Below are positions 8,738-38,962 of a stretch of 64,000 bases of DNA, piece by piece; within the stretch, counting starts at the first letter, position 1; each line of letters opens with the position of its first letter. The DNA comes from Saturnia japonica (lineage: Eukaryota > Arthropoda > Insecta > Lepidoptera > Saturniidae): positions 2,170,001 to 2,234,000 of the forward strand of contig CM065322.1 of the NCBI GenBank assembly GCA_033032175.1, in the 5' to 3' direction. The position numbers and the translations under genes are program-made. The notes beneath the pieces were generated by a model. It saw only the letters and a list, made by a program, of their open reading frames with translations, was not told the origin of the DNA and did no database searches.

Positions 8738-9013
8738 TACTGAACTGTTGTAGTCAATTAATTAAATATTAGTGTCATAAAGTTCTTTGTTAATTAATTT
8801 ATTAAACAGAAATGTTAAATGGGAGGCTTAATTGCTCAATATTATTATTATTTCTATACCTGTTTTACCACTTCTTTAATGCGTAAGATGAATTTGAAAA
8901 CTCTATTTAAATTTATCTTAATCGATGACAAGGAATGTGTGGGTAAAATAGGTTTTTAGTGTAAGCTATAAGTATGGATTCAGTCAAGTGATATTGTGGT
9001 GTTAGTCGTTTAG

Positions 9014-9019
9014 AATAAA
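9014..9019 (+). terminator. polyadenylation signal of the chitin-binding gene
   Basis: AATAAA lies 277 bases after the stop codon of the CBM14 gene and is followed by a T-rich stretch. It is the first good plus-strand signal downstream, so the 3' UTR is probably 8738 to about 9040. Confidence 0.6.
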
Positions 9020-9731
9020 GATGTTTCCTAATTACAGTTTTTTTTTTATATTCAATACTATCTGGCTCAGTAGATAAATGGCTACAGTCATACTACAATA
9101 ATGACTGTAATGTCAACAATACAATTAGTGCCCTTTTCAATTTTTTCCGATTAAATTTAACAGCGATTTTTTTCTTATACTTTTCCAGGACCTCAACGAA
9201 CACACCAAAATAGAACTACGCATATCCATCGTTGGAATCGTGAATTGTAGCCTCAAGTTCATAAAATCGAATAAAAGAAGCAAATTAAATTTTTCCAGAA
9301 TTTCCAATCTTCTAGTCAACTTTCATATTTTCCTTTTCTTAACATAAATATTAGGGCAATGACACTAACATTTAAAAAAAGATGAACCAAATTGGTCCAA
9401 CCTTTGTGAAGTGATGCGCAACCCAAAAAAGGATTTAATTTTTATTTTAATACTAGCTGTGCCCGCGGCTTCGAATCTAAGAATTAAAACAAAAAAAAAA
9501 ATACAAAATCTATCCAATTGTTTTTGCGTGATGCGCGCACAACGGCAAACCTCAATCATTTTATTTATATAGATAATCAAATATGAGAAATCCTGAAATA
9601 GCATTGAACATTCAGATGCAAATTTTAAGTACAAAGAAACACAACAGTAAAAGACAAATACAATTTGACTCAAATTTTTAATCACAAAAAGACATGCAAG
9701 GCTAACTTACATTAACAACGCACCGTTGTGG

Positions 9732-9842
9732 CTATTTTTTCCCTGACCGTAGAAAACAATGAAAACATTTTTCACACAACATAGGACCTAAGGCAATCAA
9801 ACCAGCCGCCGTTAACGCGGTGGCTAAACTCATACAAATCAT
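9732..9842 (-). CDS. micro-ORF A1: 36-residue hydrophobic Cys/Lys-tailed peptide
   Basis: Complete ATG-to-TAG ORF of 36 codons. It begins MICMSLATAL, continues with small hydrophobic residues to a Gly-Pro at residues 19-20, then has Cys-Glu-Lys-Cys and a short basic tail ending in Lys-Lys. One N-terminal membrane segment with a small basic/Cys tail is the simplest reading. It is clearly paralogous to the neighbouring micro-ORFs at 10884, 11456, 17536 and 22037, which share the opening, the Ala-rich core, the Gly/Val-Pro and the Cys. The start has A at -3. It lies 79 bases downstream of micro-ORF A2 with no AATAAA between them, so both may be on one mRNA. Function unknown; I recognise no named family. 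Confidence 0.65.
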   Translation of the reverse strand: MICMSLATALTAAGLIALGPMLCEKCFHCFLRSGKK

Positions 9843-9921
9843 AATGAAAAACTTTAAAAAGCAATTTAAAATAAATAAAAATTATAGCAATTAATACGAA
9901 TAATTGGTGAAGTTTAATTAT

Positions 9922-10062
9922 TTAGTAAGGCATGCCGCAATCAGGACATAAAGGTACGGGAGGACAGGAGCAATTTTTCTCGCAGAAACCCTTCGTCCAT
10001 AAGGGTAAACATGCCACCAAAACACCGGCAGTTAATAAACTTAGTAGTGATATACAAATCAT
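9922..10062 (-). CDS. micro-ORF A2: 46-residue hydrophobic peptide with Cys-rich tail
   Basis: Complete ATG-to-TAA ORF of 46 codons. Residues 1-20 (opening MICISLLSLL) form one hydrophobic segment ending Leu-Pro. The tail has five cysteines and is proline-rich (Cys-Glu-Lys-Asn-Cys-Ser-Cys-Pro-Pro type, ending Cys-Pro-Asp-Cys). A strong splice acceptor (T-rich then TTTCAG) ends at 10099, leaving a 36-base leader before the ATG, so the ORF sits complete in one exon. The start context is weak (T at -3), whereas the next ORF (A1) has A at -3. This order would allow leaky scanning to A1. Member of the micro-peptide family; function unknown. Confidence 0.65.
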   Translation of the reverse strand: MICISLLSLLTAGVLVACLPLWTKGFCEKNCSCPPVPLCPDCGMPY

Positions 10063-10419
10063 GCACGCAATTGTTGAAAAACTTAAACGGATTTATTTCT
10101 GAAACAATAAATATACTGATTAAGCTACGAAAATAACAAAATAATATAAATTGTAATTTATATAAAGATATACTGTACTTTTTAGGTATTTTAACAATTA
10201 ATTAAGAAGCAAAAATGATGAGAGCGATTTTTTAAGATAAGCACGCACATTGTATCAAAAGTCATGTGCGTACACGCGGAGTAAGTGAAACCTTCAGATA
10301 TTCTCTCGCAGGCTAAAAATCCTATTTATGTTTGTTTCTTTTTAGTGTCGCTTTTTCGTTTCATCGCGTTTCAAATTACAAAGGTACTAAAGTACCAGAG
10401 GTATAAATAACAGTAAATT

Positions 10420-10600
10420 GACGATGCTGTGCCTGATGGTAAGCACAGTACAATCCTAACACAACGGCGACTACCGAGAGATCGTAATCCGTCGACGGTC
10501 GCTGCTGTTATACTGGCCTGCATTCATTTAACTAGACATGCACAGGCTGATCCCAAAACACGACGTGTAAAAACGAGTAACTATGACGAACTTATCAGAA
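10420..10600 (+). repeat. LINE coding remnant between micro-ORFs A2 and B
   Basis: The plus strand contains gatggtaagcacagtacaat and cgaccgtcgacgg-type blocks shared, inverted, with 18440-18610. It is a fragment of the same LINE family as 2360-2722, and the plus-strand frame here is repeat-derived, not a host gene. Confidence 0.6.
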
Positions 10601-10883
10601 CATGCATGCTGTTCGTAACCCTTCACATTAAAGAAGTATACATTCTAACGATCGTATACAATTTGTTTGTTTTATTCAATGTAGAAATATTTCAATATTA
10701 AGACTCAGTAATACTCAAAATTATTATTACCTTTTCATCTTTACTAGTTTAGATAAAATGAAAAAGTATGTATTCCAAAGAAATCTAAATTATTATGTTA
10801 TTTTATTAAATGAAATATACACAAATTATAAAATTATTTTATTTTGATATTAATCTAAATATTAATTATAATTTAACAAATAA

Positions 10884-10988
10884 TCATTTTGATTTCATGA
10901 CACATCTCATTATCTTGTCACACAAAATAGGTCCGCAGCCTATACATCCAACGGCAATTAAAGCGGTTGTGAGACACATGCAAATCAT
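10884..10988 (-). CDS. micro-ORF B: 34-residue hydrophobic peptide
   Basis: Complete ATG-to-TGA ORF of 34 codons, opening MICMCLTTALIAVG and continuing to a Cys-Gly-Pro at residues 18-20, then Cys-Asp-Lys and a short basic tail (Met-Lys-Ser-Lys). It aligns end to end with A1: same opening, same Gly-Pro position, Cys then acidic then Lys. The ATG has A at -3. It follows micro-ORF C by 69 bases with no intervening AATAAA. A possible minor acceptor (ATAG) lies about 16 bases upstream, so separate splicing cannot be excluded. Function unknown. Confidence 0.65.
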   Translation of the reverse strand: MICMCLTTALIAVGCIGCGPILCDKIMRCVMKSK

Positions 10989-11057
10989 TTTCACTATAAC
11001 GAAGCTATCATCCAAACGAAAGTAAACAGCAAAGCTATAATAATAGCTTCGATATTA

Positions 11058-11186
11058 TCATTTCTTACAGTCGTCACACAAGTAGGTGTTAGTATGACAG
11101 TTACACTTTGGTCCGCAAATTAAATTCAAACAAATTGGGACAATTACGATGATAGCGGCCACTGTGACGGTACCCAAGAAAGACAT
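11058..11186 (-). CDS. micro-ORF C: 42-residue hydrophobic peptide with Cys-rich tail
   Basis: Complete ATG-to-TGA ORF of 42 codons. It is the most divergent member: it opens MSFLGTVTVAA, has a long Val/Ile hydrophobic run to about residue 24, then Cys-Gly-Pro-Lys-Cys-Asn-Cys and a tail ending Cys-Asp-Asp-Cys-Lys-Lys. The Cys tail resembles that of A2. A strong acceptor (CTCTTTTGTTTCAG) ends at 11210, giving a 23-base leader. The start has C at -3 (weak) and is followed by ORF B, which has A at -3, the same weak-then-strong order as A2/A1. Function unknown. Confidence 0.6.
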   Translation of the reverse strand: MSFLGTVTVAAIIVIVPICLNLICGPKCNCHTNTYLCDDCKK

Positions 11187-11455
11187 AAGAAGTATATCTA
11201 TTCAAGATTCTGAAACAAAAGAGAATTTTCATAGAATCCAAATAGCAAGTAAAGGAATATGAATATTTCAATTAGCAAAAATGGCATTATGACGAATTAA
11301 GGAAATATTGTATTCTAAACGTTAGATAAATTACTAAGTATGATAATAAAGCTAGAAAAATTGAAACAATTTTTAATCATTTTTTTTTTTATTAACAATA
11401 AAACTTACATTTCACATGTATTGTCCAAACACAAACAAAACAATAAATAAAAAAT

Positions 11456-11566
11456 TTAAGCAGACTTATGAAAACTTTTCCTTCTCAAACAACATGTAAC
11501 TTTTTCGCAAATCAGTGGTCCAAATATTAGGAGACTTAGTACCGTGAAAGCAGTCAAGTAAGTCAT
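11456..11566 (-). CDS. micro-ORF E: 36-residue hydrophobic peptide
   Basis: Complete ATG-to-TAA ORF of 36 codons, opening MTYLTAFTVLSLLIFGP, then Cys-Glu-Lys, a Cys-Cys pair and a basic tail. The Gly-Pro, x-Cys-Glu-Lys and Cys-x-Arg order matches A1. The frame stays open upstream to 11680 but only with GTG, so the family-like ATG at 11566 is chosen. An acceptor (TTATTTCAG) ends at 11736, giving a 169-base leader that contains a 6-codon upstream ORF starting at 11717. A strong donor (GTAAGT at 11408-11403, minus strand) lies 48 bases after the stop, so this block could be an internal exon spliced on to the acceptor of ORF C. Function unknown. Confidence 0.6.
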   Translation of the reverse strand: MTYLTAFTVLSLLIFGPLICEKVTCCLRRKSFHKSA

Positions 11567-13392
11567 AGGGACAGTTTTCGTTAATTTAATTTTTTGACGG
11601 AAGAAGGAAGTAATTTGCTTACAAATTGTTTCTGGCTTAATCAGAAGATACAATTGAGAGTCCTTTACTCTGGCAAACACTTTCTCAGTGATAAACGTTT
11701 AGCAGATAAATGAAAGCATCAACAAATTGTCGGATCTGAAATAAATATTGAAGTGCATTGAGAAAAATATACAACATTATATCAAAATTATAACATAAAA
11801 GTTGAACGAGCTTATCTGTTGTGTAATTATTCTGATAGGTCTGGAAACAATAATCACTTATCACCAGTAACTTATATAGAAAACACTTGGCAAGCTTATT
11901 TATTATATTTACCTTTTAAATATAATTCAAACGACAATTAAATTGGAACCATTGAGGCATATGAAAGTGCTCAGTGAAGTGATTAAAACTAATCCTTTGA
12001 GAATACCAATATCCAAAATTAGTTAAATAAGTACTGAGGTTGAAGGTGAAATTTTTGATATAAGAATTCATTTTCCTATTATTTTTAATACTCAGTTCAA
12101 TACTTACTTTTTTTCTATCCTTTATTACAAAGAAAGAAGTATTTGGATGGTCATTCGTATGAGTTCAAACGCCAAACGATAATCCTGATATCAAGATTAT
12201 CCTGGCAACGTTCCACAATAATTTCACTCGCATATTGTATTAGGTGAAAAGGATATCCACATAAAAATTTATTTTAAATGGTGACGGGAAAAATATGACT
12301 TGTAATTTTCTAAATTTGAAATCTTTCTTAAATATCTGTCGTTGTCGATTTATAAAGAAGAAAGTTAAAGAAGTTTATATTCAAACCTATCTATGGTTTG
12401 TAATAGTAACGTTGATGGAAAAGTAATATATGATTTTTTTTTAATTATTCATCAATAGTTCTTTAATAATTTATACCTCAAACGCTGCAAATTTTGATTT
12501 ATAGGTGTTAAATCTAACTTGATGATTTAGCCATTTATATAATACTATCTGGCCCCGAAGACGTTATTCTGATCTTTCAAGTACTTACTCAGTTACTCAA
12601 TAACAGCACCATTTATCACATTAGGGGATAGCATAAATAACTTCTCCATGAAAAAAAAAGTCTACAATCTTTAGTAGTGATCGGTCAAAATGTTTTGGAG
12701 TTTATCAATCACACGTATCAACATCCATTTTTATAAATTATATAGATTTAGCGTTAATTACTTTATTTGAATTTTATAAATAATTAAGAGTTGAACACAC
12801 AATTCGCTGAGTGATAAAAAAGATGTTTAAAAAATATGCTACACGACCTAATTGACGTTTATTATGCCAAAATTATTATTATCTGTTCATCTATTTGAGC
12901 GCATAATCATAACTAAATACATTTAGTAAATATTAATGTACACTTTAAAACATTGTATTTTGCAAAAATAAATCAGATTTCTTTTAGTCACGATCTACGA
13001 CCTACAGGTCGTTACAGGTCTAAGCACATACGAAAATGATCTCATAATCCTATCTTGTTCTAATACTTATGCTCTTACTCTTTCAAATAGAAACGAATCA
13101 GTAGTTCCATATATCACCACCTACAAACATACTAGAACTTTACTTCTCAACAATAGTAGTATAATTAATGGAATACATTATACTTAGTCCATCGTAAGAA
13201 ATTCTGCATGACGTGTCTATGGAACGTAAATTGTTAGGTCTTTCGAATTATAACCTTACATTTCGACTATCAATCATTAAAAGAGGTTTGATACTGATAA
13301 ATGTTATAAAAATATTTTGCACGACATAATCCTAAATAAGTTCCTCTATACAATGACCACTGTAAATTTTCATCATTTTATTTCTCACTACG
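11567..13392. other. leader and spacer upstream of micro-ORF E, no protein gene seen
   Basis: The part nearest ORF E (11567-11735) is its likely leader exon. Beyond the acceptor the sequence is AT-rich with no credible ORF. A strong minus-strand donor (GTAAGTATT, starting at 12107) could end an upstream non-coding exon spliced to that acceptor. The rest to the LTR element holds nothing I can support. Confidence 0.4.
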
Positions 13393-13544
13393 TGATGTGA
13401 ACTTCTTAGTTTAACCATAGACTTATTTATGAATAACTGACAAACGTTGTCACTAGATTTTATCTGTCATGTTTAGATTTTAATACGTGCCATTTTAATG
13501 TTGAATAAAGCTAAAGTTCTCAGTTATATCGTATTTATTATGCA
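13393..13544 (+). repeat. 5' LTR
   Basis: 152-bp direct repeat identical by eye to 16360-16511. It starts TGATGTGAAC and ends TTATTATGCA. It contains AATAAA near its 3' end (gttgaataaagc), as expected for LTR polyadenylation. It is bounded on the left by the duplicated tcactacg. Confidence 0.9.
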
Positions 13545-13589
13545 ATCAATTTATTCAACATTAAAATTTTTGAAAATAAACATTGCGTC

Positions 13590-13913
13590 ATGTACGAAGA
13601 AGAATCAAAAGTTCCGGCCTCGCCGTCTTCGAGTATATCACGCTATTTACGCCCTGAACGCTTCGATGTGGAGCCTGCTACTGCTGCTTCAGACTTAAAA
13701 TGGACTCATTGGCGGTATTCTTTCGAAAACTTTTTGTCTGAAGAGGCTCCTCATGCAACTGAAATATTTAAATATAAGATTCTCGTAAACCATATATCAC
13801 CAACTATATTTAATCTCATACGTGAGTGTGGTGAATATAATACTGCTATAAAAATACTGGATAATAATTATGAGAAAAGGAGATATATATATAGATACAG
13901 GAAGCTCTATTAG
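13590..13913 (+). pseudogene. gag-like fragment of the LTR element
   Basis: ATG-started ORF of 107 codons directly after the 5' LTR. Its first ~90 residues look like the N-terminal part of a gypsy gag (acidic, with a Trp-x-x-Trp-Arg-Tyr-Ser-Phe-Glu segment). It then runs out of frame into the protease region. The capsid C-terminus and any zinc knuckle are missing, so an internal deletion has fused truncated gag to protease. Confidence 0.6.
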
Positions 13914-14676
13914 TTTCATCGATAACAAATTGGCAATAACCATAAAACTGAAAAGAAAGCCTTGTAACCAAGCTGTAACTCTTGCTTTTCTTAACCATAT
14001 CTCATATGTAAATGGACTATGCTATGCCACTATACAAATCAATCACCACGTTTACAAACACCAACCATTGCTTATCGTAGACGATCTCTGTGCAGACATT
14101 ATTATAGGCCACGACCTTCTCAAGAATCATTCGTCTCTTGAACTCCAGTTTGGTGGTGACAAAGAACCACTGAAAATCTGCAATGTGCTTGAAGCTTCTG
14201 TTCCACCAGCGTCGGATTTTACTAATTTATCGCCTAATATCAAACCAATCGCTATCCGATCTCGACGCCACTCCGAAGAAGATCAGCTTTTTATATCAAA
14301 TGAAATATCTAACCTTTTAAAAGACAATGTCATTGAGCCAAGTGTGTCACCCTGGAGAGCACAAGTTCTGGTTGCTGGAGGAGGCAGTCACAGGAAACGC
14401 CTTGTAATTGATTACTCACGGACCATAAATAAATATACGGAGTTAGATGGCTATCCTTTACCCAGCATCGATTCAATTGTCACTCAAGTCGCCAAATATA
14501 ACTATTTTAGTCAGATAGACCTCAAGAGTGCTTACCATCAAGTGAAAATCCTTCCCAAAGAAAAAATATATACAGCATTTGAAACTTGCGGAAATCTTTA
14601 CCAATTTACTAGAATACCTTTTGGAATAACAAATGGAGTTGCCGCATTTCAAAGAACTCTTCAATTCATCAGATAA
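13870..14676 (+). pseudogene. protease and N-terminal reverse transcriptase of the LTR element, truncated
   Basis: 268-codon ORF. It starts almost at the aspartic protease active site (Asp-Thr-Gly-Ser, about residues 9-12) and has the Ile-Ile-Ile-Gly-His-Asp-Leu-Leu segment of retropepsins. The RT fingers and palm follow, with QIDLKSAYHQV and the FGITNGVAAFQR region. The frame ends at a stop where an inverted piece of integrase sequence begins (14663), so the YxDD catalytic box, the rest of the palm and the thumb are absent. It overlaps the gag-like frame. Not functional as RT. Confidence 0.8.
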
Positions 14677-14752
14677 GAACGATGAGCCTCTATCGGAGTG
14701 TATGTAGGCCGGAATTCCGAATAAGGAGAAAAGTTCTCGAAGACATTTTTTT
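14663..14752 (-). repeat. inverted copy of an integrase segment inserted in the RT region
   Basis: About 90 bases here are the reverse complement of 15640-15727, the integrase core around IHSDRDSSFLSDE. On the minus strand the peptide is near-identical. It replaces the RT catalytic region of the same element. Confidence 0.85.
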
Positions 14753-15461
14753 AAGAGCGCTAGGATTGTCTGCTCACTATTCAAAGTGGATCGTCAATTT
14801 TTCCGTTAAGATCAGACCGTTAGTGGAAGCATCTTTTCCGCTATCAAAAGATTCAATAAACTGCTTCACGAAACTCAAGTCTGACATCGCAGAATCAGCC
14901 CTCGCAGCTATTGATGATAAGCAAGTATTCTCTGTTGAAACTGATGCTTCCGAGTAGGCTATTGCTGCAACTCTGTCACAAGAGGGTCGTCCTGTCGCAT
15001 TCTTTTCACGCTCACTGAATAATTCCGAACGTCGACAGCCCTCCATTGAAAAAGAGGCTAGCGCTATTGTAGAAGCATTGCGAAAATGGCGCCACTATTT
15101 AATCGGAAGACATTTTTTACTTGTTACAGATCAGCAATCGGGCTCATTCATGTTTGATCAGCAACATTCAAGCAAAATTAAAAACGAAAAAATAGAAAGA
15201 TGGCGCTTGGAACTTTCTTGTTATAAATATGACATTATTTATCGCCCAGGAAAACAAAATCAAGCTGCCGATGCACTGTCTAGAATTTGTCTTATAATGG
15301 ATACTACTTCCAACAAACTCACAGAACTTCATAACTCTTTATGTCATCCAGGCGTCACACGGATGATACACTGGATTAGAGCAAAGAACTTACCTTATTC
15401 TGTTGATGAAGTAAAAAGAATGGCTGCGGCATGCCCAGTTTGCGCCGAAATAAAACCATGA
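14753..15461 (+). pseudogene. connection, RNase H and integrase zinc finger of the LTR element
   Basis: The pol frame resumes after the inverted block (ALGLSAHYSKWI). It continues through the RNase H region (Val-Glu-Thr-Asp-Ala-Ser catalytic segment, then KEASAIVEALRKWRHYL and YRPGKQNQAADALSR) and the integrase HHCC finger (His-x5-His, then Cys-Pro-Val-Cys). An in-frame TAG directly after the catalytic Asp-Ala-Ser-Glu (near 14955) and a TGA at 15459-15461 interrupt it. Decayed pol. Confidence 0.8.
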
Positions 15462-15518
15462 TATGTAAAAAACGAAGGGCAACTCGTAAAAGCGACAGCA
15501 CCTTTCGAACGCCTTAAC

Positions 15519-16346
15519 TTGGATTTTAAAGAACCGCTTCCATCCAATACTTCTAACCGATACATTTTGACCATAATTGACGAGTATAGTCGGTTTCCCT
15601 TTGCCTTTGCTTGCAAAGATATGACATCTGAAACTGTGGAAAAATGTCTTCGAGAACTTTTCTCCTTATTCGGAACTCCGGTCTACATACACTCCGATAG
15701 AGACTCATCGTTCTTATCTGATGAATTTAAGAAGTTTTTCACATCTCTAGGCATAGCCTGTAGTCGGACGACTCCTTATAACCCCCGTGGAAATGGCTTA
15801 GTAGAACATCTTAACGGAACATTATGGCGGACTATCCAGCTACATCTCCGCTCTACAAAACGAGATATCGCCGAATGGGAAAAGGCAATACCGATTGCAC
15901 TTCACTCAATAAGATCTCTGTTGTCCACCGGAATAAACGTCACTCCACATGAGAGGATGTTCAACCACCCCCGCCGATCTGGAAACGGCCAATCAATGCC
16001 AACTTGGCTACTATCTCCGGGACCTATATATATGAAGAAAAACGTAAGGAACTCAAAATATGACCCAGCTGTTGAAGAAGTAGAGCTTCTACAAAGCAAC
16101 CCTCATTATTCTTACGTCAGATTACCGGAGGGGCGCGAGACAACCGTCTCTAACAGACGTCTGGCACCAATACCAGTGACTGAAGAGATTCCATCTGATG
16201 ATGAGTACTTAACTCCAGACTCTGAGAGAACTCAGACCGCTGACGAAGATCCATCTCCTAATGTAATTGATGAGAATATTCAAGTACGCCGTTCGACTAG
16301 AGAACGTAGATCTCCTTCATACCTTCAAGACTACGTTACAACTTAG
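15519..16346 (+). pseudogene. integrase core and C-terminus of the LTR element
   Basis: About 275 open codons in the pol frame with the three acidic residues of the DDE core visible: Leu-Asp-Phe near the start, IHSDRDSSF, and GNGLVEHLNGT. A basic/acidic C-terminal tail ends 13 bases before the 3' LTR. It has no ATG at its beginning and depends on a pol frame that is broken upstream. It is the best preserved part of the element and the source of the inverted segment at 14663-14752. Confidence 0.8.
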
Positions 16347-16359
16347 AAGGGAGGGTGAA

Positions 16360-16511
16360 TGATGTGAACTTCTTAGTTTAACCATAGACTTATTTATGAA
16401 TAACTGACAAACGTTGTCACTAGATTTTATCTGTCATGTTTAGATTTTAATACGTGCCATTTTAATGTTGAATAAAGCTAAAGTTCTCAGTTATATCGTA
16501 TTTATTATGCA
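16360..16511 (+). repeat. 3' LTR
   Basis: 152-bp copy identical by eye to the 5' LTR, preceded by a purine-rich tract and followed by the duplicated tcactacg. Confidence 0.9.
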
Positions 16512-17337
16512 TCACTACGTGCCGTGATAACTTGGACTACTATGTTACTAGAGTAGACCAGAGTAATAAAATCATGGAATAGAATAATTAATAGGTATTT
16601 TATAAGTTGATCCAGCTTTGACGCTTACATGCCAACGTGAATGGTGGGCAATTACCATAAATTCACTTTCTACTTTATACCGGTGTGAGCGACAAAAAAT
16701 TGTTATTATTTTTTGACAACAGAGTTTTCCGCCTTACGCTGTGTTTTCCCTTTTTTTGGTTCAAAATGCTAATACTAAAATTTGTAATGATTTCAAATTG
16801 CTTTTAGTGGGAGTAAAACGCGTCTAATCGAACTTATTAGTTTATTTTCTAAGTTAATATAAAAGTTATTTAACTATCTACAATCTTCTACAAAAAAAAA
16901 ACAATAATTTTGAAAGACGACCAATGTCAATGATATTAAATTGGGACCACTTATGAGGTATCCAATTTCCAACGAAGAAATAATTGTCTAAATCGGTTCT
17001 TATTTGGCTCTTTATATTTTGTGCTCGGTGTCTTATGAACAAAAAAAGAAAAACACCTATCTAGGTAAACTTGGAATGTAAAACATTATCTAAATTCAGT
17101 TTCATCGAAATCGTTGGAGCCGTTTCCAAGAAACCAATTATATATATATATATAACAGAAAACTTCCTCCTTTTTTAAACTTGGTTAAAAATATTATCGA
17201 TAATCGTAAAATGAACTTTTAAGTTATGCTACATCTCTAAAATAAAAATGTAACATGTAAGCCTTTATTATAATGAACAAAGTATAAGAATGCGTCAGTC
17301 ATCATGCAATAAAACGAAACTAATCAATATACAAATT
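16512..17337. other. AT-rich spacer with an old dispersed repeat
   Basis: No ORF of interest. About 16915-17130 (gaggtatccaatttcc, aaatcggttc) resembles, in reverse orientation, the dispersed family also seen at 30990, 34188 and 59128. A short TA microsatellite lies at about 17139-17153. Confidence 0.4.
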
Positions 17338-17343
17338 TTATTT
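17338..17343 (-). terminator. polyadenylation signal for micro-ORFs D2/D1
   Basis: Minus-strand AATAAA beginning only 12 bases after the stop codon of micro-ORF D1. It suggests the D2/D1 exon is a terminal exon. Confidence 0.5.
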
Positions 17344-17354
17344 TCAAACTAACA

Positions 17355-17525
17355 TCACTTTATATTCGACCGTTTTGGGCAACACGGGCTCTTGCACGAC
17401 GGCGGCGACTCTTTTTTCGGGCTGGCACACTTTTTACAAGGCCAGTAAGTATCAAGTACTATAGGACCACACGCAATACAGCCCGCTGCGATCAACGCAG
17501 TGAAACATGTCATACAGATTAGCAT
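17355..17525 (-). CDS. micro-ORF D1: 56-residue peptide with hydrophobic segment and Cys/Pro/Lys tail
   Basis: Complete ATG-to-TGA ORF of 56 codons. It opens MLICMTCFTALIAAG, has Ala-Cys-Gly-Pro at residues 18-21, then a tail with six cysteines, many Lys and Pro (Pro-Cys-Lys-Lys-Cys, Ser-Pro-Cys-Cys-Pro-Lys). The core aligns with micro-ORF B (Cys-Gly-Pro-Ile). Its ATG lies 10 bases after the stop codon of D2, with G at -3. An internal Met at residue 5 could also start. It must be translated from a two-ORF message or by a separate start. Function unknown. Confidence 0.7.
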   Translation of the reverse strand: MLICMTCFTALIAAGCIACGPIVLDTYWPCKKCASPKKESPPSCKSPCCPKRSNIK

Positions 17526-17535
17526 ATCCGCGAAT

Positions 17536-17649
17536 CTACTTCTTCAAACACTTGAGGAACTTTTGCATTTCAAACTGCCGGTAGCAGACGGGAACGCACG
17601 CTAAGATCGTGGCGGATGCGATCAATGCGTACAATGAGAGGCAAATCAT
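17536..17649 (-). CDS. micro-ORF D2: 37-residue hydrophobic peptide
   Basis: Complete ATG-to-TAG ORF of 37 codons, opening MICLSLYALIASATILACVP, then Val-Cys-Tyr-Arg and a basic tail ending Leu-Lys-Lys. It is the closest relative of micro-ORF F on the opposite strand (22037-22159): they share MICxSLY, the Cys-Val-Pro-Val-Cys segment, and about 20 bases of leader before the ATG (gccgttgaatt versus gccgtcgaatc). A 74-base leader follows a good acceptor (ACTATTACAG) ending at 17724. The start has A at -3. D1 follows after 10 bases. Confidence 0.7.
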   Translation of the reverse strand: MICLSLYALIASATILACVPVCYRQFEMQKFLKCLKK

Positions 17650-18419
17650 CTTTTAATTCAACGGCGATTGGCCACCTCGCGCACTAGTGGAGTATGATGA
17701 TGCAGCTACGACGTTCCCGGTTTCTGTAATAGTTTTATCTTATAATATAAGAAGATAAGATAATATATCTAAATAATTCTTATATAATAAAATAAAGTGG
17801 AAGAGTTTTTTGTTTGTTTGTTTAAACACGCTAATCACTGGAATAGTATAGGTTATCTAACATCCGGTTACAGCTCTCAGTTAACCAGTTAGCCTTATAT
17901 TTTTGTTAAGTATGTCTGAAATGGAACCATTTCCGAAATTATTTATCCGAGTGCGCTGGCGTAATGGTTAAACATACGTAAATATAATGTTCTACAAAAT
18001 TATTGGTACTTAGTACATTTAAAATAAGCCCGCGATAGCATATGCCTAAACCACAATAAGGTATTTTGCTAACAACATTTTTTGTTGAAAATTAAAAATT
18101 GGTTTATGAGTATTATTTTGAGGCATGGCATGTTAATCCCTACGAACAAAATGTACTTCATCATAAAGACAATTTTATTATCTTAAATTTTAGCAGTGTT
18201 TATTTGTACAAATTCTTTAGAAGATAATCAAAAATTAAAATAATTTGTTCTTGGGGGAATTGAGAACAACAAAACTATAATAGGCTACATGAGCGCGTTG
18301 GCAGCGCGGTGTTTGTCGGTGAAACCTAAGGGCACAGCTAGTATTAAATAAAATCTTGTGTCAATAACTTGACCGATTGAGCGCAAGATTGAATGAAACC
18401 GATTTAATGTGGGTGTAAG

Positions 18420-18620
18420 GGGTGAATCGCGACCACCGCAGTGAAAAGTCCGTCATAGTGACTCGTTTTACGTGTCGCGTTTCGGGCTCAGTCTGTGCAT
18501 ATCCAGTTAAATTAATTCAGCCCGGAATAACAGCAGCGACCATCGATCGATTACGATCTCTCGGTGGTCACCGTTCTATTTGTATTGTACTGTGCTTACC
18601 ATCAGGATCAGTATCAGTCA
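18420..18620 (-). repeat. LINE coding remnant (dispersed family also at 2360, 10420, 44985, 62620)
   Basis: Shares aagtccgtcatagt and gtttcggg(a/c)tcag with 2610-2675, and gatggtaagcacagtacaat (reverse complement) with 10433-10452. The minus strand carries fragments of the same C-terminal LINE peptide as the 2360-2722 fragment, full of stops. Confidence 0.6.
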
Positions 18621-18689
18621 ATATCCTGACCTACGATATAAAAAGAGATGTAGGTAGAACAAAGGATCAATGTTTTTGAAGGTTTTCCT

Positions 18690-18905
18690 TTACTTGGGAC
18701 AACCCGACTCGTGTAATCACAGAAGATCACAGCCCAATTAGCCTTGTGTTGTATTTCTGCGGTGAGTAGGGTTTCAAGTTAGCTCTTTGGAGTAAGGGGG
18801 TTCAAGGTCGGCAACGTGCTAGTGATACCTAAGATATTGCAAGCGTCCATAGGCTACGATAGCCGTTTACCATCAGGCGGGCCGTACGCTTGTATAACAC
18901 TTTGT
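18690..18905 (+). repeat. SINE-like dispersed repeat
   Basis: Contains gcaagcgtccataggctacg and ttaccatcaggcgggccgt, phrases common in lepidopteran dispersed repeats. Related copies lie at 5110-5300 (same strand) and 32270-32460 (opposite strand). Confidence 0.6.
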
Positions 18906-20756
18906 GGTATAAAAAACTCATAATTACATAATATATTTGTTTTATCAATATGGTTTATAGATATCTTAGGATTCGATAGGTGGCGTAATGGTCGAGCCAT
19001 TGTTAATAATGTTATGGTTGATTACAATTGCGCTTAGAATTTTCCAATACTTTAACAGATTGTTCATAGATTTAACCTAAAGGTACTACAATACGACTGC
19101 TATTTTTTGTATTATCTATATAATATTATGAGGAGACAACTTCGAACTTATTTTTAAGCATATTGCGTGCACCGAGGACTGATATTTGGCACGGTCAAAG
19201 TTTATATGGAAAAGGAGTACGAAAAGCCAAAATTTATAATACATAATGTGTTAATAATATATTAAATCGAATAAAATAATACTGCGATTCCTAACACGAA
19301 CTTAGACCCACCAAAATTTTGACACAATGAAAATTGACAGCAAGTTATATAAAATTCATTGCTTACGTTTATACTGCAAATGTCAAAAAGAAAATCGTCT
19401 ATGATCAAAAAGTCGCTGTTTTAATTTCAACTATTAGGACACTGATCTTTATTATTATTATTTATTACACTAACAACTCTTCGAGCTGATGCGCGTATAT
19501 CACAAGTACTAAACATGTGAAGTTTTTAAATGTTTCTCCAGTCTATTTTAAAAACAGTTCACTATTGGTGCAGTAATAACAGTCTCTGGAAGGGTGTTCC
19601 ACGTGGCGACTACTCTATTAAATAAGAAGTGTTTTCAGGGGTTACTATTGCTTGGAATCTTCTTTAATTTCATGGAGTGACCTCTTAAATGTGTACATTG
19701 ACTCATAGTATAGATATATCTTATAAAAAGTAATTATGGCTTAGTGGTTGCTTGTGGATACTGCTTTGATTGATGCGAGTTCGAATAACTACAATGAGCC
19801 TTAATTTTCGGTGAAAGAAATCATCGTGATAAAACCATGGTAGGGCATTTTGTGATGCCCACCTGGCTAGATACAACCCTTAAGTTAAAAATCTTCCGGT
19901 AGCTGCACTTGAGAGCCAGACCCTCACTAGGCTGTGTTACGATCTTGAGCCTCATCGTGAATTACTATCAGGTGAGATAGCGGAAGGATAAAAAAAAAGC
20001 AATTTAGGAAGATAAATATGATGAAAGTTTTATGATATACACAGTACATTACCTTCGTTATTCCTACTAATCTTGTCTTCCTAAAATTATTATTGAACTA
20101 TACCGGTGCATGAGCTAGTATCGCCGAATTATTGTAATAAAGCACACTTCAAACCGATAGATATTCACACACATAATTTCGTTTCTGTTGGTATATTATA
20201 AATATTTTACATGTAATTTACTCCATGGCGTTTTCTGACAGCTCCTTTTGATTTCATTAATTTGAATTTTGTAATAATTCTTTTATTTTTAGCCAGTATT
20301 TATAACCCAGTCTTAGTTCTCTATGTCCTCCTGATTTTCCCTAACTTGAAGTTAAACTATTCTTCTATTTACCTCTTTCTATTTTAACCAATTTAAAGGA
20401 AAATGAGATAAGAATACAGATACACAATTCTAACCATAGAGAGGACCTTATTTTCTGTTTGATTATTTTCTTTATTGTTTACTGTCAACGCTATTATAAT
20501 TTGCATTTAATAGCTATAAGACCTCTACAAACTGGAACACTGAAAGAAGTAAAACTATTTTTCTAAATTTAGAAACGACAGTGTCAATCTGCCAAACGTC
20601 TTGCAAGAGATCGTGATTTGTTTATACAAATTGTGACAGAAAATTTCTTATCCACCATTCTGGGATCCGAAATAAATAACTTATGTAATCGTTTAAGAAT
20701 GATAGGGCATCTCTTATTTGACACATTACACAAGTAAGTTGACAGAGTGTACATAA

Positions 20757-23084
20757 ATGAGACTTTCGTTGTTATTACTATTGACTGCGGCGTCAGTTTG
20801 GGGGTTCCCGCAGAAGAGGGTGGAAAAGGGACTATCGCAGTACCAAGAACGGAAGGAACTAAAAGCGAGAGAGTCACCGAGAGACTGTAAAGGGAAGTGC
20901 GCGACTAACATTGCTCAAAAAGCGGCGGCTGAAGCGAAGGCTGCACAAGCTGCACAGAACGCTGCCGGTGCACAAGCTGCGCACATAGTGAGTTTCCTTA
21001 GAAAAATTATTATCGGTTACTCATATAATTATATAAGTAATTATATATTTATGTGGAGCAAAAATTTAATTATAAACATAATAATTGCTTTTTGGTAATA
21101 ACATAAATATATACATTGAAATAGAAAACAGTGTGGTGTTTAATTATATAGGTGTATTAATTTTGTTCTATGTCTCGATAGTATAGTTATTATGAAGTAT
21201 TCTTGCACTCAGTTCCCTAGATGCATACATAAATGTATCATGCATGTAATGTGCATATACAATGTATTTTAAAATCTATCAGTGAAGATAAGTAGCTATA
21301 ACATTCTAATAATTAATAATTGTGATATTCGCAAAGATAAACTAAAATTAATATATATTATGCAGGTCAAAACACAATTGGCAGAAAAAGCACTTCAAGC
21401 AGCAAAGGCAGCAGAAGCCGCACTAGCCGGTAAACAGGCTGTGGTAGAACAACTACAACAAGAAGTTAAAGAAGCTGAAGCAGTTGTTGCTGAGAATACT
21501 GCCGCAGTACATCAACAACAGGGCACAGTCAACGCAGCTGTTCAAGCTGCTCAACAAGCTACCGCACAAGTAAGAATTTACATCTTAGATTAATATTGAA
21601 CTCCTTTGAAACTATTATTAATAAAGTATATTAATCAAATTATGATCGGTAAAAAAGTAAAGCTAATATTTATGCAATAATGTAATTTCTCAAATTAGAT
21701 TTAAGACATTTTTGTATTTTAAAAGATTTATCTTCAACAATTCCTACCTGATCAGATGAAATAAGAAAACGAGTTTTACGATGTTCACCCTCTCTAGTTG
21801 ATCTTTACTGAGAAATCTGCTGATTAAAGTATCGAGGTTCCTGCGTGACGCTTTACTAAAATTATTATTAATTTTCAAAACATATCGCTGTTTCGGATTT
21901 GGTGGTTATTGTTGAAGACATTTAAACGATACTTCGTAAAACTACCGTTTTCTGTTTGTCCGTAAGGTCTGATCTGGTAACGAGAGTTGAAGATAAAGGA
22001 GAAGCAGTCTCGTGGTCTGCCGTCGAATCGTTCAAAATGATTTGCATGTCGCTGTACAGTTTCATTGCGACAGCAGCAGTGCTCTCGTGTGTGCCCGTTT
22101 GCTTTAGAGCATGTTCAGTGAAATTTCTTTCATGTTTCTGTACCGGCAAGAGGAAGTAAATTTCAATCATCAGAATGGTGGATAAATCGTTGTAATATTT
22201 AACAGTCGTGGTTTTATAATAAATATGTTATGTTTTATTTGTCTATCTTTTATTGAAAATTAATTGGATTATGATCAGAGTCTACGCAATTTAGTTTAAT
22301 ATGGTTAGAGCTTCAAAGGCATCCGATAAAACTACTTAACAATCCGTAATCATTACGATTGCTTATTTAGGAAAGATCTATAGAAGTAAATCCAATTACA
22401 CGAGGATGTATAAATAATCAAATAAGACAATGTATACATGTTTTTGATTTATAATAAACATCAAATGTTTAAAATGATTGTTTACTTATGTACTTAAGGT
22501 GTCATACTTTTTTGGCGTAACAAGACAAAAATAACTCCTAAGAATTTTATCCTGCGTGTCAACAACATGATAAAGTTAACTTTTACTGTCTTTTTGTCTA
22601 AGAAAGTTTAACAGTGTATAAACAACCTTATTTTAATCATTATAGCACTTCCATTGCATGTTGCGCATGCAGCTCTAAATTTTACCTTCTACTAAGTGCG
22701 CCAAAAGATGTATCACTTTAAAAGCAATATTGAATTTAAATTATAATTCTAACATTTTTCTTCGATTTGTTATATGTTTTATAGCACAAGTTATTAATGC
22801 AAGCTACGCAGCTAGCGGCTCAAATGGAAAAGTCGGCGCACTCTGTCCTCGATAAGACAAAGTTTGGGCTACAAGAGAAATGTCACAATTTGTCTGAAGC
22901 CAGAGCTCGTTTAGCACACCTCCAGCACAAGTTGCAATGTGCGTGCGCAGATTGTTCTGCTACTAAGCAGGCAGCGCATTGTGCTTGCGAGGCAGCTCGT
23001 GCAGCGTGTGGAAATGCGAGGAGAAAGAAACACATTATTGACCAAAACGCACTCGCTTTAAGGGAATCCAAGCAAGGACGATGA
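20757..23084 (+). CDS. secreted Ala-rich coiled-coil protein, probable DUF745 family, three exons
   Basis: Exons 20757-20987, 21366-21569 and 22785-23084, all phase 0 with good GT/AG, encode 244 residues. Residues 1-16 (MRLSLLLLLTAASVWG) are a clear signal peptide, then a basic Lys/Arg-rich stretch. Residues ~45-190 are a long Ala/Gln/Glu-rich heptad-like coiled coil (AEKALQAAKAAEAALAGKQ). The layout matches my memory of the insect DUF745 family, secreted proteins of unknown function. The C-terminal quarter is unusual: seven cysteines in about 50 residues (LQCACADC, HCACEAARAAC) and a basic end. Intron 2 contains micro-ORF F on the same strand. Secretion and coiled coil are well supported; the family name rests on memory. 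Confidence 0.82.
22037..22159 (+). CDS. micro-ORF F: 40-residue hydrophobic Cys/Lys-tailed peptide nested in an intron
   Basis: Complete ATG-to-TAA ORF of 40 codons, opening MICMSLYSFIATAAVLSCVP, then Val-Cys-Phe-Arg-Ala-Cys and a Cys-Phe-Cys-Thr-Gly-Lys-Arg-Lys tail. It is a clear paralogue of D2, but on the plus strand, inside intron 2 of the coiled-coil gene. The frame stays open upstream to 21956, but only through TTG. The ATG has A at -3, and leader similarity to D2 extends upstream. A possible acceptor (TTTGTCCGTAAG) ends at 21966. AATAAA at 22218-22223 gives it its own likely 3' end. It may be an independent nested gene or an alternative terminal exon of the host. Function unknown. Confidence 0.68.
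   Translation: MICMSLYSFIATAAVLSCVPVCFRACSVKFLSCFCTGKRK
22218..22223 (+). terminator. polyadenylation signal of micro-ORF F
   Basis: AATAAA 59 bases after the micro-ORF F stop, followed by T-rich sequence (gttatgttttatttgtc). Confidence 0.5.
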
Positions 23085-23158
23085 TGAAAATACCATCAAT
23101 TACAAATATAAGAATTAAGACCTAAACATCAATTTGGAAAGTAATCCGATTCAAATGC

Positions 23159-23202
23159 AATAAATAGATATTCTAAAATATTCGAAATTTGTCCTAAATA
23201 AA
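23159..23202 (+). terminator. two polyadenylation signals of the coiled-coil gene
   Basis: AATAAA at 23159-23164 and again at 23197-23202, 75 and 113 bases after the stop codon. Confidence 0.6.
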
Positions 23203-24797: not shown

Positions 24798-26027
24798 TTA
24801 GTCGACTATACTAAACGCATCATTTAAGTTTTGTGGACTAAAGGCTAGATTGCTGTTCTTATAATTGACGTAGGGCGAGTTTGTGGCTGATGATGGAATT
24901 TCTGAGTCGATAAAACTTTGCGGAGGCGCAAACTCGTCGTCGTCGAGCAACGGCGAATTAGTTTGAAACTTAGGTATGTATCTAGCGGGCGGTTCAGCGT
25001 ACTGACCTCCGACTATTATCTCCTCGTTGAGACCTGGCTTCTGCGGCTTCCACAGCCGGTTCACAAGCTTGATGTTTCCCGGTTTCTTCTTCTTCTCTTT
25101 CTGCACTTTCTGTTTTTGTTTCTCGTTGTGAGCATATATATCTGAATAAGAGTTCAAGTTTTCTTCATTACCTTCTGATGGTATTGGAGTTACAAACACA
25201 TCAGGTTCTGGTTTCATGTAAACTGGATGTGTTTTAGAATATTCATTAATATTGTCTATGCTTTGTTCACGTTTCAAATTTTTCCATGATTGATATTCCT
25301 TGTCGAATTCTGCAAAATCATCGTTTTTGAAATGATGCATTGATTTGAAAGCTTGTAATGTTGGATAAAGATCTTTTAAAGTGGTTTTGACAAATGCTCC
25401 GTACGAATCAACTGGTGGTTCGGCGTGATTGAATTTTGGGTAATCGTCGCGATTTGTAGGTGGTTCTGCAAAATCCGTTGAAACCGGTGGATGAAGTGGG
25501 AAATGGGGAGTTCTACTTGGCGAACCATAAGCTGGGTTTGGGTGTTTCGGTGGCCCGTACTTGGGTTTCATTGTGTGTTTTTTATAACTTTGCGGTCTGT
25601 ATTTAGGGCTCGCATTTTTTCCTCTATACTTCTTTCCTGGTTTTCGCATTATTTTTGGAGGTCCATATTTTGGTCTCGGAGGTCCATATTTCGGCTTAGG
25701 TGGTCCATACCTGTGTTTTGATATCCTGGATACTCTTCTATAAATCATTTTTGGCTTTTGGTATGCCGTTTCCATTGGAAAATTATCTATCAGCATTATG
25801 GTATCGCGTTTATTCAAGCGAATGTTTTTCTTTGTTTCTTCTACTTCTTTCTCTTCGGTTTCGGCTGCTGCGCATGTTGCGCATGTTAGAGTTATCTGGA
25901 AGAAGTAGAAATAGATTATGTAAATATGAAATAATTACTATAATTATGCCTGTATTAATTTATTTCATAGTTCAGTTAATTCTGAGTTAAAATTTACAGT
26001 AATGGTAATCTGTAAGCAGACCTCCAT
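24798..26027 (-). CDS. secreted YGPP-repeat protein, two exons
   Basis: Exon 1 25998-26027 (10 codons, donor GTAAAT) and exon 2 24798-25895 (366 codons including TAA) join in phase to give 375 residues. The N-terminus (MEVCLQITITITLTCATCAAA) is a plausible signal peptide split by the intron. An acidic stretch follows, then residues ~50-115 with four Tyr-Gly-Pro-Pro units and one Tyr-Gly-Ser-Pro, spaced by Lys/Arg/Pro, and strongly basic. The remainder has three Ala-Glu-Pro-Pro motifs, a Lys-rich patch (Glu-Lys-Lys-Lys-Lys-Pro) and a C-terminus rich in Ser, Asn and Pro. Tyr/Gly/Pro repeats are typical of insect structural matrix proteins (cuticle, eggshell, silk). I do not recognise the family. 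Confidence 0.8.
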
Positions 26028-36130: not shown

Positions 36131-37093
36131 CTATTTATTCCGCTTGTTCGCTATCTTTTCGATGAATTCCAAAAAGTGCCCTCTTTTCTGCTCATCCGCC
36201 ACCAAACAATTCAATGTGACCCTATCGATCTTGTGACCAATCCTGGACTCGAGGTCGAATCTGGACGAGCCGAATCTTGGACAATCTACAATCAGGTGGT
36301 AGATTGTTTCCGCAATATCCGGTTCGCATTCACACGCGGGACTGCCCTTGATCTTGAAGCGGTACAGGTACTCCGCAAATCCTCCATGGCCTGTGAAAGC
36401 TTGGACATGGGCAGGTAACATATTGGTCTTCCTCAACACCCGGTGAGCATCTGCCACCTTCGGGAAGAAGACCCGCGTCACCCCACCCGTGTCAGAGGAC
36501 TCGTAGCGCGCCTGCCTCTTAAGGACAGTCTCCTCTCGTATGACATTCTTCGCGTATGACACCGGATACCGATCATAGTCGGCCACGGTCTTCTTGTGGG
36601 CGGCCCTCTTCGCCAACACGTCGGCACGTTCGTTTCCAACCGTACCAACGTGAGCACGCACCCAGTACAAGTGCACCGCACGCCCCTCCGCTCTAATAGC
36701 TCGAATCGCTGTCTGCGCTGCAAGAGCCAGACGGTGAGGCGGGATCGGATTGGCCAGCATCTCCAGCGACGATTTAAAGTCACTGAAAATACTGACCTTC
36801 CCGTCACCAGCCTTATGCACCATCTGTACCGCCCTATGCAACGCATAAAGCTCGGCCTGAAAGACGGAGCAGAAAGGCTCTAGGCGAAACGTGGAGAACC
36901 TGGTTTCACATCCTTCTTTGAACCAAGTCACAGCAGCTCCCACTCCACCGTCGATCTTACTGCCGTCGGTGAAGATCCCGGAGCCGCCGGACTCAGGAAG
37001 GACTTCCAAGCTCTCGTACGGTTCGCCAACACAATACACTGGGTGCGGATAGTCGGTGAATTTTACCGGCCGCTCCAACGCACGGTCGACCAC
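36131..37093 (-). pseudogene. RNase H and C-terminal domain of R1-like LINE copy 1
   Basis: 320-codon frame without a true start. RNase H motifs: Ile-Phe-Thr-Asp-Gly-Ser-Lys, FQAELYALHRAV, Ile-Phe-Ser-Asp-Phe-Lys-Ser-Ser and GNERADVLAKRAA. The R1-type Cys/His tail (ACECEPDIAETIYHLIVDC) follows. A TGA near 37110 separates it from the upstream pol frame. Confidence 0.85.
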
Positions 37094-37379
37094 GATCTCG
37101 TCCAGACCTACTCATTTCTTTGCACAGTACAGCCTGTATACCTCTTGGGCGCGGAGGTCAAGCGAGGTCAAGGTCGAGGTCTGCCAGAACCAATGCTGAT
37201 GTTAAAGAAACCGTACGATAAGCCCTACAGATCTTAATTGCGAAACCCCTCTGCAGGAAGTTTAGTCTATTCCTAATCGAGATCTTCCCTGCAGAGGGGC
37301 CCCACACACTAGCGGCATACAGAACTATCAGTTCTACTACAGCGCTATAAATCGTCCTGATAATCTCTGAGTTCAGGCC

Positions 37380-38489
37380 CTAGCTCACCCTCGCTGCACA
37401 CGCCAGCTGTTTATAGATGTCAGCGGCCTTCTTACAGGCAACAGCGGCGTGTGCCTCGAAAGTGAGCTTATTATCCAAAATCAGGCCCAGCAGGCGGAAC
37501 TTCTTCTCTAAAGGTAACCGGACTCCTCCCATGATCAGGACCGGGGCGTCGAACTTAAGCTTCCTTGTAAGCACCATCGCTTTGGTCTTATGCGGGGCAA
37601 AGGAGAGCTTATTTTCGACGCCCCAGTTCATCACAGTCTGCAGGGTCCGGCATACAAATTCCTGCATGGGCCCGACCTCACTTCCAGAGAAAACCAGGAC
37701 GACATCGTCTGCAAAGGCATGACAGTACACCCCCGCGACCTCAAGCTTCACCAACAGGGAATCGAGTATCAAGTTCCTAAAGGTTGGCCCAGCGATAGAT
37801 CCCTGCACGCAACCCTTCGAAGACTCCCGACTTACCTGACAACCGGCATAACTTAGCTCTATACGTCGATCCTCGAGATACGACAGAACCACGCTGTACA
37901 AATTTCTAGGGCACCCTTTGGCCACGAGCTGCGAATTCAGCGCTGGCCACCACGCGTTATCGAACACGCCCTCTATGTCCAGTGACACCAAGACGACGAT
38001 CTCCTTCCCCTCTAACTTCGATCGTACGTACGCCACCAGATCATAGAGAGCATCTTCCGTGCTGCGTTGTGGCATGAACCCATACTGCCGCACGCTGAGT
38101 TTGGGTAACAAGTGCCAGCGTAAACGTCGAACCAATAGCTTTTCTAGAAGCTTGCCCAACACCGGCAAGAGGCCAATAGGACGGTAGGATTTTGGCGATG
38201 TGTAATCCTCCCTAGCTGGCTTCCGGAGAATGCACACCGTTGCAGTCTTCCAGGGATGAGGGAAATGGCCCAATTCCAGGCACTTATTAACCAGTGATAA
38301 TAATGTCAGCCATGTAAACCATATGTCAGCCGTGAAACCATCCCCCCCAGGAGCTTTTCGCGGATGAATCTCTTTACACACCCGCTCTATCTCCTCCTGG
38401 GTAAAAGGTGGGTCTGCGGCCGACAGTCCTCGTGGCCAACCGGGGAGGCGCCCCTCAGTCGCTGTCCTAATGGCCCTCTGGGCTTCGGT
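37380..38489 (-). pseudogene. reverse transcriptase of R1-like LINE copy 1
   Basis: RT motifs in order: RKAPGGDGF, YRPIGLLPVLGKLLEKL, QYGFMPQRSTEDAL, VSLDIEGVFDNAWW, GCVQGSIAGPTFRNL and the catalytic Phe-Ala-Asp-Asp box. The frame is open from 38489 and stops at 37380-37382. Downstream coding continues in broken frames to the RNase H. The endonuclease half is absent. Confidence 0.85.
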
Positions 38490-38962
38490 TTTTTTTTTTT
38501 TTTTTTTTATTTTTTTTATTATTTGGTTGGGTTAATGAACCCCACCCCCCGAAAAAAAAGTCTCTAACATGATCAGAGAAAGATATCTAATTAATTATTA
38601 CAGTACTCTTATTTTATAAAACCCACACATTCTCTCCTACGACTATTTAAGCTGGTCCCTACTCCTAGTTACCCATTTCTATTTATTAACTATGACCCTT
38701 TTCTTTCTCTACACTAACTTTTATTCCCTAAACCTAATTTCCCTTTTTATTCCTTTATTAAAAACAAAACTTACATCAATATATTACAAAATTAACTCAC
38801 ATGTTTAAAAATAACAATAATAATTAAAATAATAATAAAATTAACATCGTTTGTCTATATAAATAACAATTCCTTACTATCTATTTAATAATTTACATAT
38901 AATCAATTTAATTTAACAGTCATAAATTTTTCAGTAACAAACTTAACAAAAATTTTACCTAT

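Follow-up and report, generated by a model that had tools for sequence, protein, structure and literature searches.

What does a run of very short open reading frames (ORFs) in the genome of Saturnia japonica (Lepidoptera; Saturniidae) encode, and does each ORF stand by itself? The ORFs lie within a stretch of 64,000 nucleotides (nt), here called the window (contig CM065322.1 of GenBank assembly GCA_033032175.1, positions 2,170,001 to 2,234,000 of the forward strand), and all positions below are counted from its first letter. A preliminary description of this DNA had reported eight complete ORFs of 34 to 56 codons as a clustered family encoding membrane-type peptides; translation from ATG to stop held for all eight at the reported positions, giving peptides of 34 to 56 amino acids. 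On balance, we favor the view that these ORFs encode a family of lepidopteran membrane-anchored micropeptides in two classes, A and B, mostly co-translated as dicistronic pairs that would act together. The two classes, three probable dicistronic pairs (units 1 to 3), one copy lying within what appears to be an intron of a DUF745 gene, and a paired-cysteine tail (C-x-C...C-x2-C) in two members are features beyond that description. The eight ORFs, named below by their lower coordinate, are listed here; each assignment rests on translation, a leave-one-out profile, and the A/B split, with cross-species identity in addition for 17536 and 9922.

17536..17649, minus strand: A-type micropeptide, 37 amino acids, putative first cistron of unit 1
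17355..17525, minus strand: B-type micropeptide, 56 amino acids, putative second cistron of unit 1
9922..10062, minus strand: A-type micropeptide, 46 amino acids, putative first cistron of unit 2, tail C-x-C-x5-C-x2-C-G
9732..9842, minus strand: B-type micropeptide, 36 amino acids, putative second cistron of unit 2
11058..11186, minus strand: A-type micropeptide, 42 amino acids, putative first cistron of unit 3, tail C-x-C-x6-C-x2-C
10884..10988, minus strand: B-type micropeptide, 34 amino acids, putative second cistron of unit 3
11456..11566, minus strand: lone B-type micropeptide, 36 amino acids
22037..22159, plus strand (the other seven are on the minus strand): lone A-type micropeptide, 40 amino acids

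The similarity among these peptides had been thought too great for chance, and it withstood each comparison that we made. A profile of the 23-residue core recovered all eight members and no other ORF in the window. When each member in turn was withheld from the profile, aligned scores were 52.8, 27.8, 45.7, 21.8, 18.8, 45.8, 37.2, and 39.5 bits, and the best nonmember in the window reached at most 12.7 with any of the eight left-out profiles. The weakest two members in the corresponding scan of the whole window were 11058 (18.5, against 9.3 for the best nonmember) and 11456 (14.0 against 11.8, a modest margin). Peak scores of the full profile in five triplet-shuffled windows were 4.6 to 9.4. 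We detected no further members in the 40 kb on either side of the window (best profile score, 3.1). Genome-wide searches over 580 Mb with four of the eight peptides as queries matched only members of this cluster: 22037 and 17536 (E values up to 1e-3); 9922 alone; 9732, 10884, and 17355 (the last at an E value of 1.1); and 17355 and 10884. These searches miss some known members, so distant copies may exist elsewhere.

Comparison of the 28 pairs of members by codon position indicated where the constraint lies. Identity was 337/605 (56%) at position 1, 372/605 (61%) at position 2, and 170/605 (28%) at position 3, and the 69 nt preceding the ATGs gave an identity of 0.267, near the third-position level. 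By hand count, position 2 exceeded position 3 in all 28 pairs and position 1 exceeded position 3 in 27; the exception was 11058/11456, in which 12 of 20 third positions match, a similarity that may reflect later duplication, gene conversion, or chance. Where two members share a residue other than Met or Trp, their codons differ in 133 of 185 comparisons, leaving 52 identical codons against 64.3 expected at random. Synonymous sites between copies look saturated. The copies are of old origin with their amino acids preserved, and selection acts at the level of the peptide. We are nearly certain that the eight ORFs form a coding family, whose members arose by duplication.

The members fall into class A, with Val/Leu-Pro (9922, 11058, 17536, and 22037), and class B, with Gly-Pro (9732, 10884, 11456, and 17355). 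With the proline and its preceding residue left out, this division gave the largest within-minus-between similarity of the 35 possible 4/4 splits. Six members form three minus-strand pairs, with A first in all three; the preliminary description treated the eight as independent ORFs, but these six make up three probable dicistronic units. From the A stop to the B start, the spacers measure 10 nt in unit 1, 69 nt in unit 3, and 79 nt in unit 2. All three are inside the range of −34 to 319 nt given for the distance between ORFs at fly loci with polycistronic transcripts only; about 18% of fly polycistronic loci contain similar genes, and such loci are enriched in genes for small peptides (PMC4528330, in part). 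The following candidate polyadenylation signals, read from the sequence, lie behind the units and the lone members.

17337..17342, minus strand: AATAAA, polyadenylation-type signal, 12 nt past the B stop of unit 1
10838..10843, minus strand: AATAAA, downstream of unit 3
9677..9682, minus strand: ATTAAA followed by GT-rich DNA, downstream of unit 2
11393-11388, minus strand: AATAAA of lone B 11456
22218, plus strand: AATAAA of lone A 22037

Neither AATAAA nor ATTAAA occurs in the spacers of units 1 and 3. A separate promoter for the B cistron of unit 1 would need to sit inside A, which makes unit 1 the strongest candidate; from this layout, unit 1 is very probably dicistronic, and units 2 and 3 are probably so. 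Stop-tolerant A, B, and combined profiles gave no prominent relic of a B after 22037 or of an A before 11456 within the 14 highest-ranking hits per list.

How the second cistron would be reached may differ between units. Position −3 relative to the ATG (A cistron/B cistron) is A/G in unit 1 (17536/17355), C/A in unit 3 (11058/10884), and T/A in unit 2 (9922/9732), so that the first start seems weaker than the second in units 2 and 3. The A ORF of unit 1 has a single internal ATG, in frame, and that of unit 2 contains three out-of-frame ATGs, so that the mechanism may not be the same. By eye, the unit 3 spacer (10989-11057, minus strand) contains an inverted repeat, GAAGCTAT ... ATAGCTTC, which might affect reinitiation. 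The splice acceptors said to flank the ORFs did not hold up as a distinguishing feature. A crude pyrimidine score placed candidates ahead of 9922 (at 36 and 62 nt), 11058 (at 23 nt), and 11456 (at 169 nt), and acceptors of similar score precede 10884 by 16 nt and 17355 by 49 nt among 841 candidates of all scores on that strand; the score does not tell first from second cistrons. Donor-like AATGTAAGT motifs are present at 9705-9713 and 11403-11411 (minus strand), shortly 3′ of 9732 and lone B 11456, and could permit splicing into the next unit, yielding mRNAs of three or more cistrons.

Searches of a protein database returned four relatives, none functionally named, in Danaus chrysippus (P0001), Iphiclides podalirius (P0002, a record labelled partial), Spodoptera exigua (P0003), and Pararge aegeria (P0004). 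Together with the protein-level selection described above, these bear out the idea of a conserved micropeptide family. Identity to 17536 was 34/37 in Iphiclides, 29/35 in Pararge (counted up to where the model departs from the ORF), and 25/33 in the N-terminal part of the Danaus protein (whose last residues are the model join); identity to 9922 was 26/46 in the C-terminal part of the Danaus protein and 27/46 in that of S. exigua. Length is kept where the whole peptide is visible (37 amino acids in Iphiclides; 46 in Danaus and S. exigua), and the C-x-C-x5-C-x2-C-G tail is common to 9922 and its Danaus and S. exigua relatives. The Danaus gene model joins a 17536-like and a 9922-like peptide, and the S. 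exigua model joins a 9922-like peptide and another member without a clear counterpart in the window (best, 13/34). Such fusions are an annotation problem that may recur in further lepidopteran genomes. Four A-type queries gave 31 and 39 pattern matches in viral and prokaryotic contigs, none confirmed as a relative.

The architecture attributed to the peptides holds in part. Every peptide has the conserved proline (five at residue 20, one at residue 21, and two at residue 17), and the Met-Ile-Cys start is literal in only five; 17355 begins MLIC, and 11058 and 11456 begin MSF and MTY and start three residues later than the other members. None of the 179 other ATG-initiated ORFs of 30 to 60 amino acids within the window, used here as controls, begins with MIC. 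No peptide has a charged residue in its first 19, the best 19-residue hydropathy ranges from 1.89 to 2.59, and tail net charge ranges from 0 to +6. Hydropathy above 1.6 anywhere was found in 8/8 members and in 29/179 controls; hydropathy above 2.0 (19 residues, within the first 25) with no charge in the first 19 was found in 5/8 members and 3/179 controls. AlphaFold modelling of 9922 with the eight window sequences gave one helix over residues 2 to 30 (mean predicted local distance difference test score, 73), a result that fits a single-pass helix but says little beyond that. Read from the sequence, each peptide has an uncharged N-terminal hydrophobic helix of about 18 residues, an exit proline, and a short Cys/Lys tail, and we consider it likely, with good confidence, that the family consists of single-pass membrane peptides. 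The paired-cysteine tails of two A members (9922 and 11058) are a possible metal site.

The same anatomy raises the alternative of secreted cysteine-rich precursors, as in defense or venom families, in which signal peptidase would remove the conserved hydrophobic part and leave the variable tail as the mature peptide. The conserved N-terminal hydrophobic part and variable cysteine-rich C-terminal part fit this proposal, as does the cysteine content (13.8% of residues against 3.3% in the control ORFs). However, no member has a basic residue ahead of the hydrophobic core, and in all eight a proline occupies the would-be cleavage site; proline directly after the cut is known to block signal peptidase. 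The tails, which would be only about 14 to 35 amino acids when mature, hold 2 to 5 cysteines each, an odd number in four of the eight. Furthermore, 17536 and its Iphiclides relative differ at two of the 17 residues after the proline and at one of the 20 up to it, so that constraint on the tail nearly equals that on the core. We regard secretion as unlikely. The lack of a basic n-region and the exit proline in all eight argue instead for an uncleaved N-terminal helix as a membrane anchor.

Mitochondrial inner-membrane micropeptides similar to Drosophila Sloth1/Sloth2, assembling or stabilizing a respiratory complex, are a second alternative, which we judge distinctly improbable. Paralogous micropeptides with one transmembrane segment, a short spacer, and a dicistronic logic are found in sloth1/2 (PMC9681215, in part). 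An N-terminal helix with a basic tail would also suit a small inner-membrane subunit. Against this, neither family nor structure searches gave credible similarity. Pfam returned nothing above its curated cut-offs for the eight window peptides (only YiaAB at an E value of 0.12 and EGF2_RECK at 0.036, both below), in line with the initial failure to recognize a named family; 14 sequences run against NCBIfam hit two families with one member each (best E value, 0.02; nothing credible); and a profile of the 14 sequences against PDB sequences gave only 5ktf at an E value of 0.43, again not credible. No Pfam match of Sloth1/SMIM4 or Sloth2/C12orf73 type appeared at E values up to 1 for the eight peptides, which were not compared with those proteins directly. 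Eight copies in this one genome are unlike a conserved respiratory subunit, and to our knowledge, cysteine-rich tails are not a feature of Sloth proteins.

It is very improbable that the ORFs belong to larger spliced genes, whether as alternative first exons or as other fragments, with stop-terminated tails produced by intron read-through. The core is conserved while tails vary among paralogues, some gene models in other species join members, and the AATGTAAGT motifs follow two members closely, all in keeping with this explanation. It is disfavored by the retention of tails and end positions across species, seen for 17536 in Iphiclides (from a record labelled partial) and for 9922 in Danaus and S. 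exigua. In addition, the tails of 9922 and 11058 share C-x-C-x5/6-C-x2-C, no consensus donor stands at a common position past the core (by eye), and polyadenylation signals lie close behind the ORFs. Chance ORFs or transposon fragments, suggested by mostly noncoding DNA and a Gypsy-type element between units, are hardly credible, as a chance origin is rejected by the leave-one-out profile, the codon-position identities, and the codon differences at shared residues, cross-species relatives argue the same way, and the matches of four of the eight peptides in 580 Mb, confined to this cluster, are unlike those of a repeat.

Under the preferred reading of membrane-anchored A/B pairs, each pair would share a single dicistronic mRNA, and ribosomes would arrive at the B cistron through leaky scanning or reinitiation. 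Peptides this short escape ordinary co-translational targeting, and insertion would therefore be post-translational. From the charge distribution, the anchor helix probably inserts into the plasma membrane or an endomembrane with its N terminus out and its C terminus in, which would place the basic tail in the cytosol. A and B would associate with each other or with a shared partner, perhaps serving a larger membrane protein as small subunits or as regulators. Production from one mRNA would suggest joint action, as for Sloth1/2 and Wurmchen1/2; a joint A/B function is an evenly balanced proposition. A bolder proposal, offered tentatively and probably not correct in full, is that an ancestral A+B dicistron encoding an obligate membrane pair was duplicated into a small array that gives Lepidoptera combinatorial, co-translated A/B heteromers with differing cytosolic tails, some metal binding; paralogous dicistronic micropeptide operons would then stand in tandem in an animal. 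In its stronger form, units would also be spliced together into mRNAs with at least three cistrons.

Several observations weigh against the preferred reading. The spacer of unit 2 contains a second ATTAAA (9918-9913, minus strand), three nt past the A stop, which would allow an A-only mRNA, and the three out-of-frame ATGs in the A ORF of the same unit oppose simple leaky scanning. The candidate acceptors before 10884 and 17355 make separate B transcripts possible, and the Danaus and S. exigua models, each fusing two members, might be a sign that units are spliced together. Peptide 9922 has no net positive charge in its tail, and its AlphaFold model has a predicted template modelling score of 0.32. 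In S. exigua P0003, the proline is missing from the first half, where an arginine lies within the hydrophobic part. Finally, A-B pairing is documented in this genome alone, since two protein-database searches found no B-type relative outside it; the second, weighted toward B, gave the same four proteins, and some B-type relatives could have escaped detection through the search's candidate step and its length limits or through gene models that are fusions.

Two neighboring genes help to place the cluster.

20757..23084, plus strand: DUF745 gene (Pfam PF05335), putative host of the 22037 copy; coding pieces approximately 20757-20987, 21366-21569, and 22785-23084
24798..25934, minus strand: secreted/cuticle-like gene, used as a synteny marker and constraint yardstick (protein-database matches)

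PF05335 matched three ORFs at consecutive profile positions, two of which alone are below the curated cut-off, and with exon ends read by eye, 22037 appears to sit within an intron of this gene. The protein encoded at 24798-25934 had 87 database matches at E values up to 1e-10 (best named match, 53% in Ostrinia furnacalis; best overall, 64%), variously named early nodulin-75-like, extensin, and adhesive plaque matrix protein-like. Its C terminus is strongly conserved across the four relatives compared. Overall identity of this neighbor protein is 38% in Iphiclides, 48% in Pararge, and 47% in S. exigua. With 34/37 residues retained in Iphiclides, 17536 evolves much more slowly than its neighbor, whereas 9922 (59% in S. 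exigua) is only moderately slower. Neighbor and micropeptide relatives lie on contigs of identical length, apparently one and the same, in three of the four species (Iphiclides, Pararge, and S. exigua), with locus tags HW555_008249/008250 and jg23308/jg23310 in two of them; we take this neighborhood as conserved synteny, for which Iphiclides shows only the same 12.8-Mb sequence.

Pieces of a Gypsy-type element (aspartyl protease, reverse transcriptase, and integrase; 13870-16346, plus strand) separate unit 1 from units 2 and 3; without this insertion, the cluster probably once spanned less DNA. Pieces of a non-long-terminal-repeat retrotransposon occupy 36131-40212 (minus strand; reverse transcriptase and RNase H, with an endonuclease match below cut-off), and a stretch repeated in two of its ORFs suggests, by eye, at least two copies. 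Putative exons at 46089-50297 (minus strand) resemble, by eye, a bHLH-PAS (AHR/spineless-type) protein; the two pieces scanned had no Pfam match. Rfam gave no match at the gathering score over 9000-23200.

A conserved lepidopteran peptide family thus surfaced in the protein database only as four unnamed gene models, two of which are two-member fusions, plausibly because the ORFs are short and would sit in pairs on shared transcripts. Should the pairs prove dicistronic, the locus would be a tandem array of paralogous micropeptide pairs; the spacers of 10, 69, and 79 nt would be natural variants for second-cistron translation by insect ribosomes, and assembly of co-encoded membrane micropeptides with each other would become testable.

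Among the matches listed in our literature search, judged on titles and abstract openings, we found no described family of this kind; a silkworm study of small ORFs (PMC9841908, in part) may hold members. The nearest known systems differ in several respects. Hemotin/stannin is likewise a small peptide with an N-terminal membrane helix and a potential polycistronic RNA, but hemotin has 88 amino acids, and its second ORF gave a detected product only from a transcript made without the first (PMC4807881, in part). The pri/tarsal-less/mille-pattes locus carries several related small ORFs per insect mRNA, as the DNA layout suggests here for three A-B pairs, and its peptides have 11 to 32 amino acids, a common LDPTGQY, and no predicted structure (PMC11475943, in part); the LDPTG motif is present in none of our eight peptides. 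Drosophila sarcolamban, related to phospholamban and sarcolipin, is also a multicistronic locus of paralogous small ORFs, and the sarcolamban and pri peptides are redundant, in contrast to Sloth1/2 and Wurmchen1/2, which act together (PMC11475943, in part). Neither Pfam nor PDB gave a vertebrate phospholamban/sarcolipin match at E values up to 1, fly sarcolamban itself not being compared. We know of no Cys/Lys tails or A/B split in the sarcolamban, phospholamban, and sarcolipin peptides. The eight members have 34 to 56 amino acids, are cysteine rich, lie in one cluster, and were found in these searches only in Lepidoptera, unlike Drosophila sloth1/sloth2 (human SMIM4/C12orf73), which have 79 and 61 amino acids, are conserved to humans, are mitochondrial with a role in complex III, and have a spacer of 5 nt as against 10, 69, and 79 nt here (PMC9681215, in part). 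Sloth1/2 are, as proposed here from an inferred transcript, two paralogous micropeptides with one transmembrane segment on one dicistronic transcript, in which suboptimal translation of the first ORF allows the second to be made, and units 2 and 3 share with them a first start that is apparently the weaker (PMC9681215, in part).

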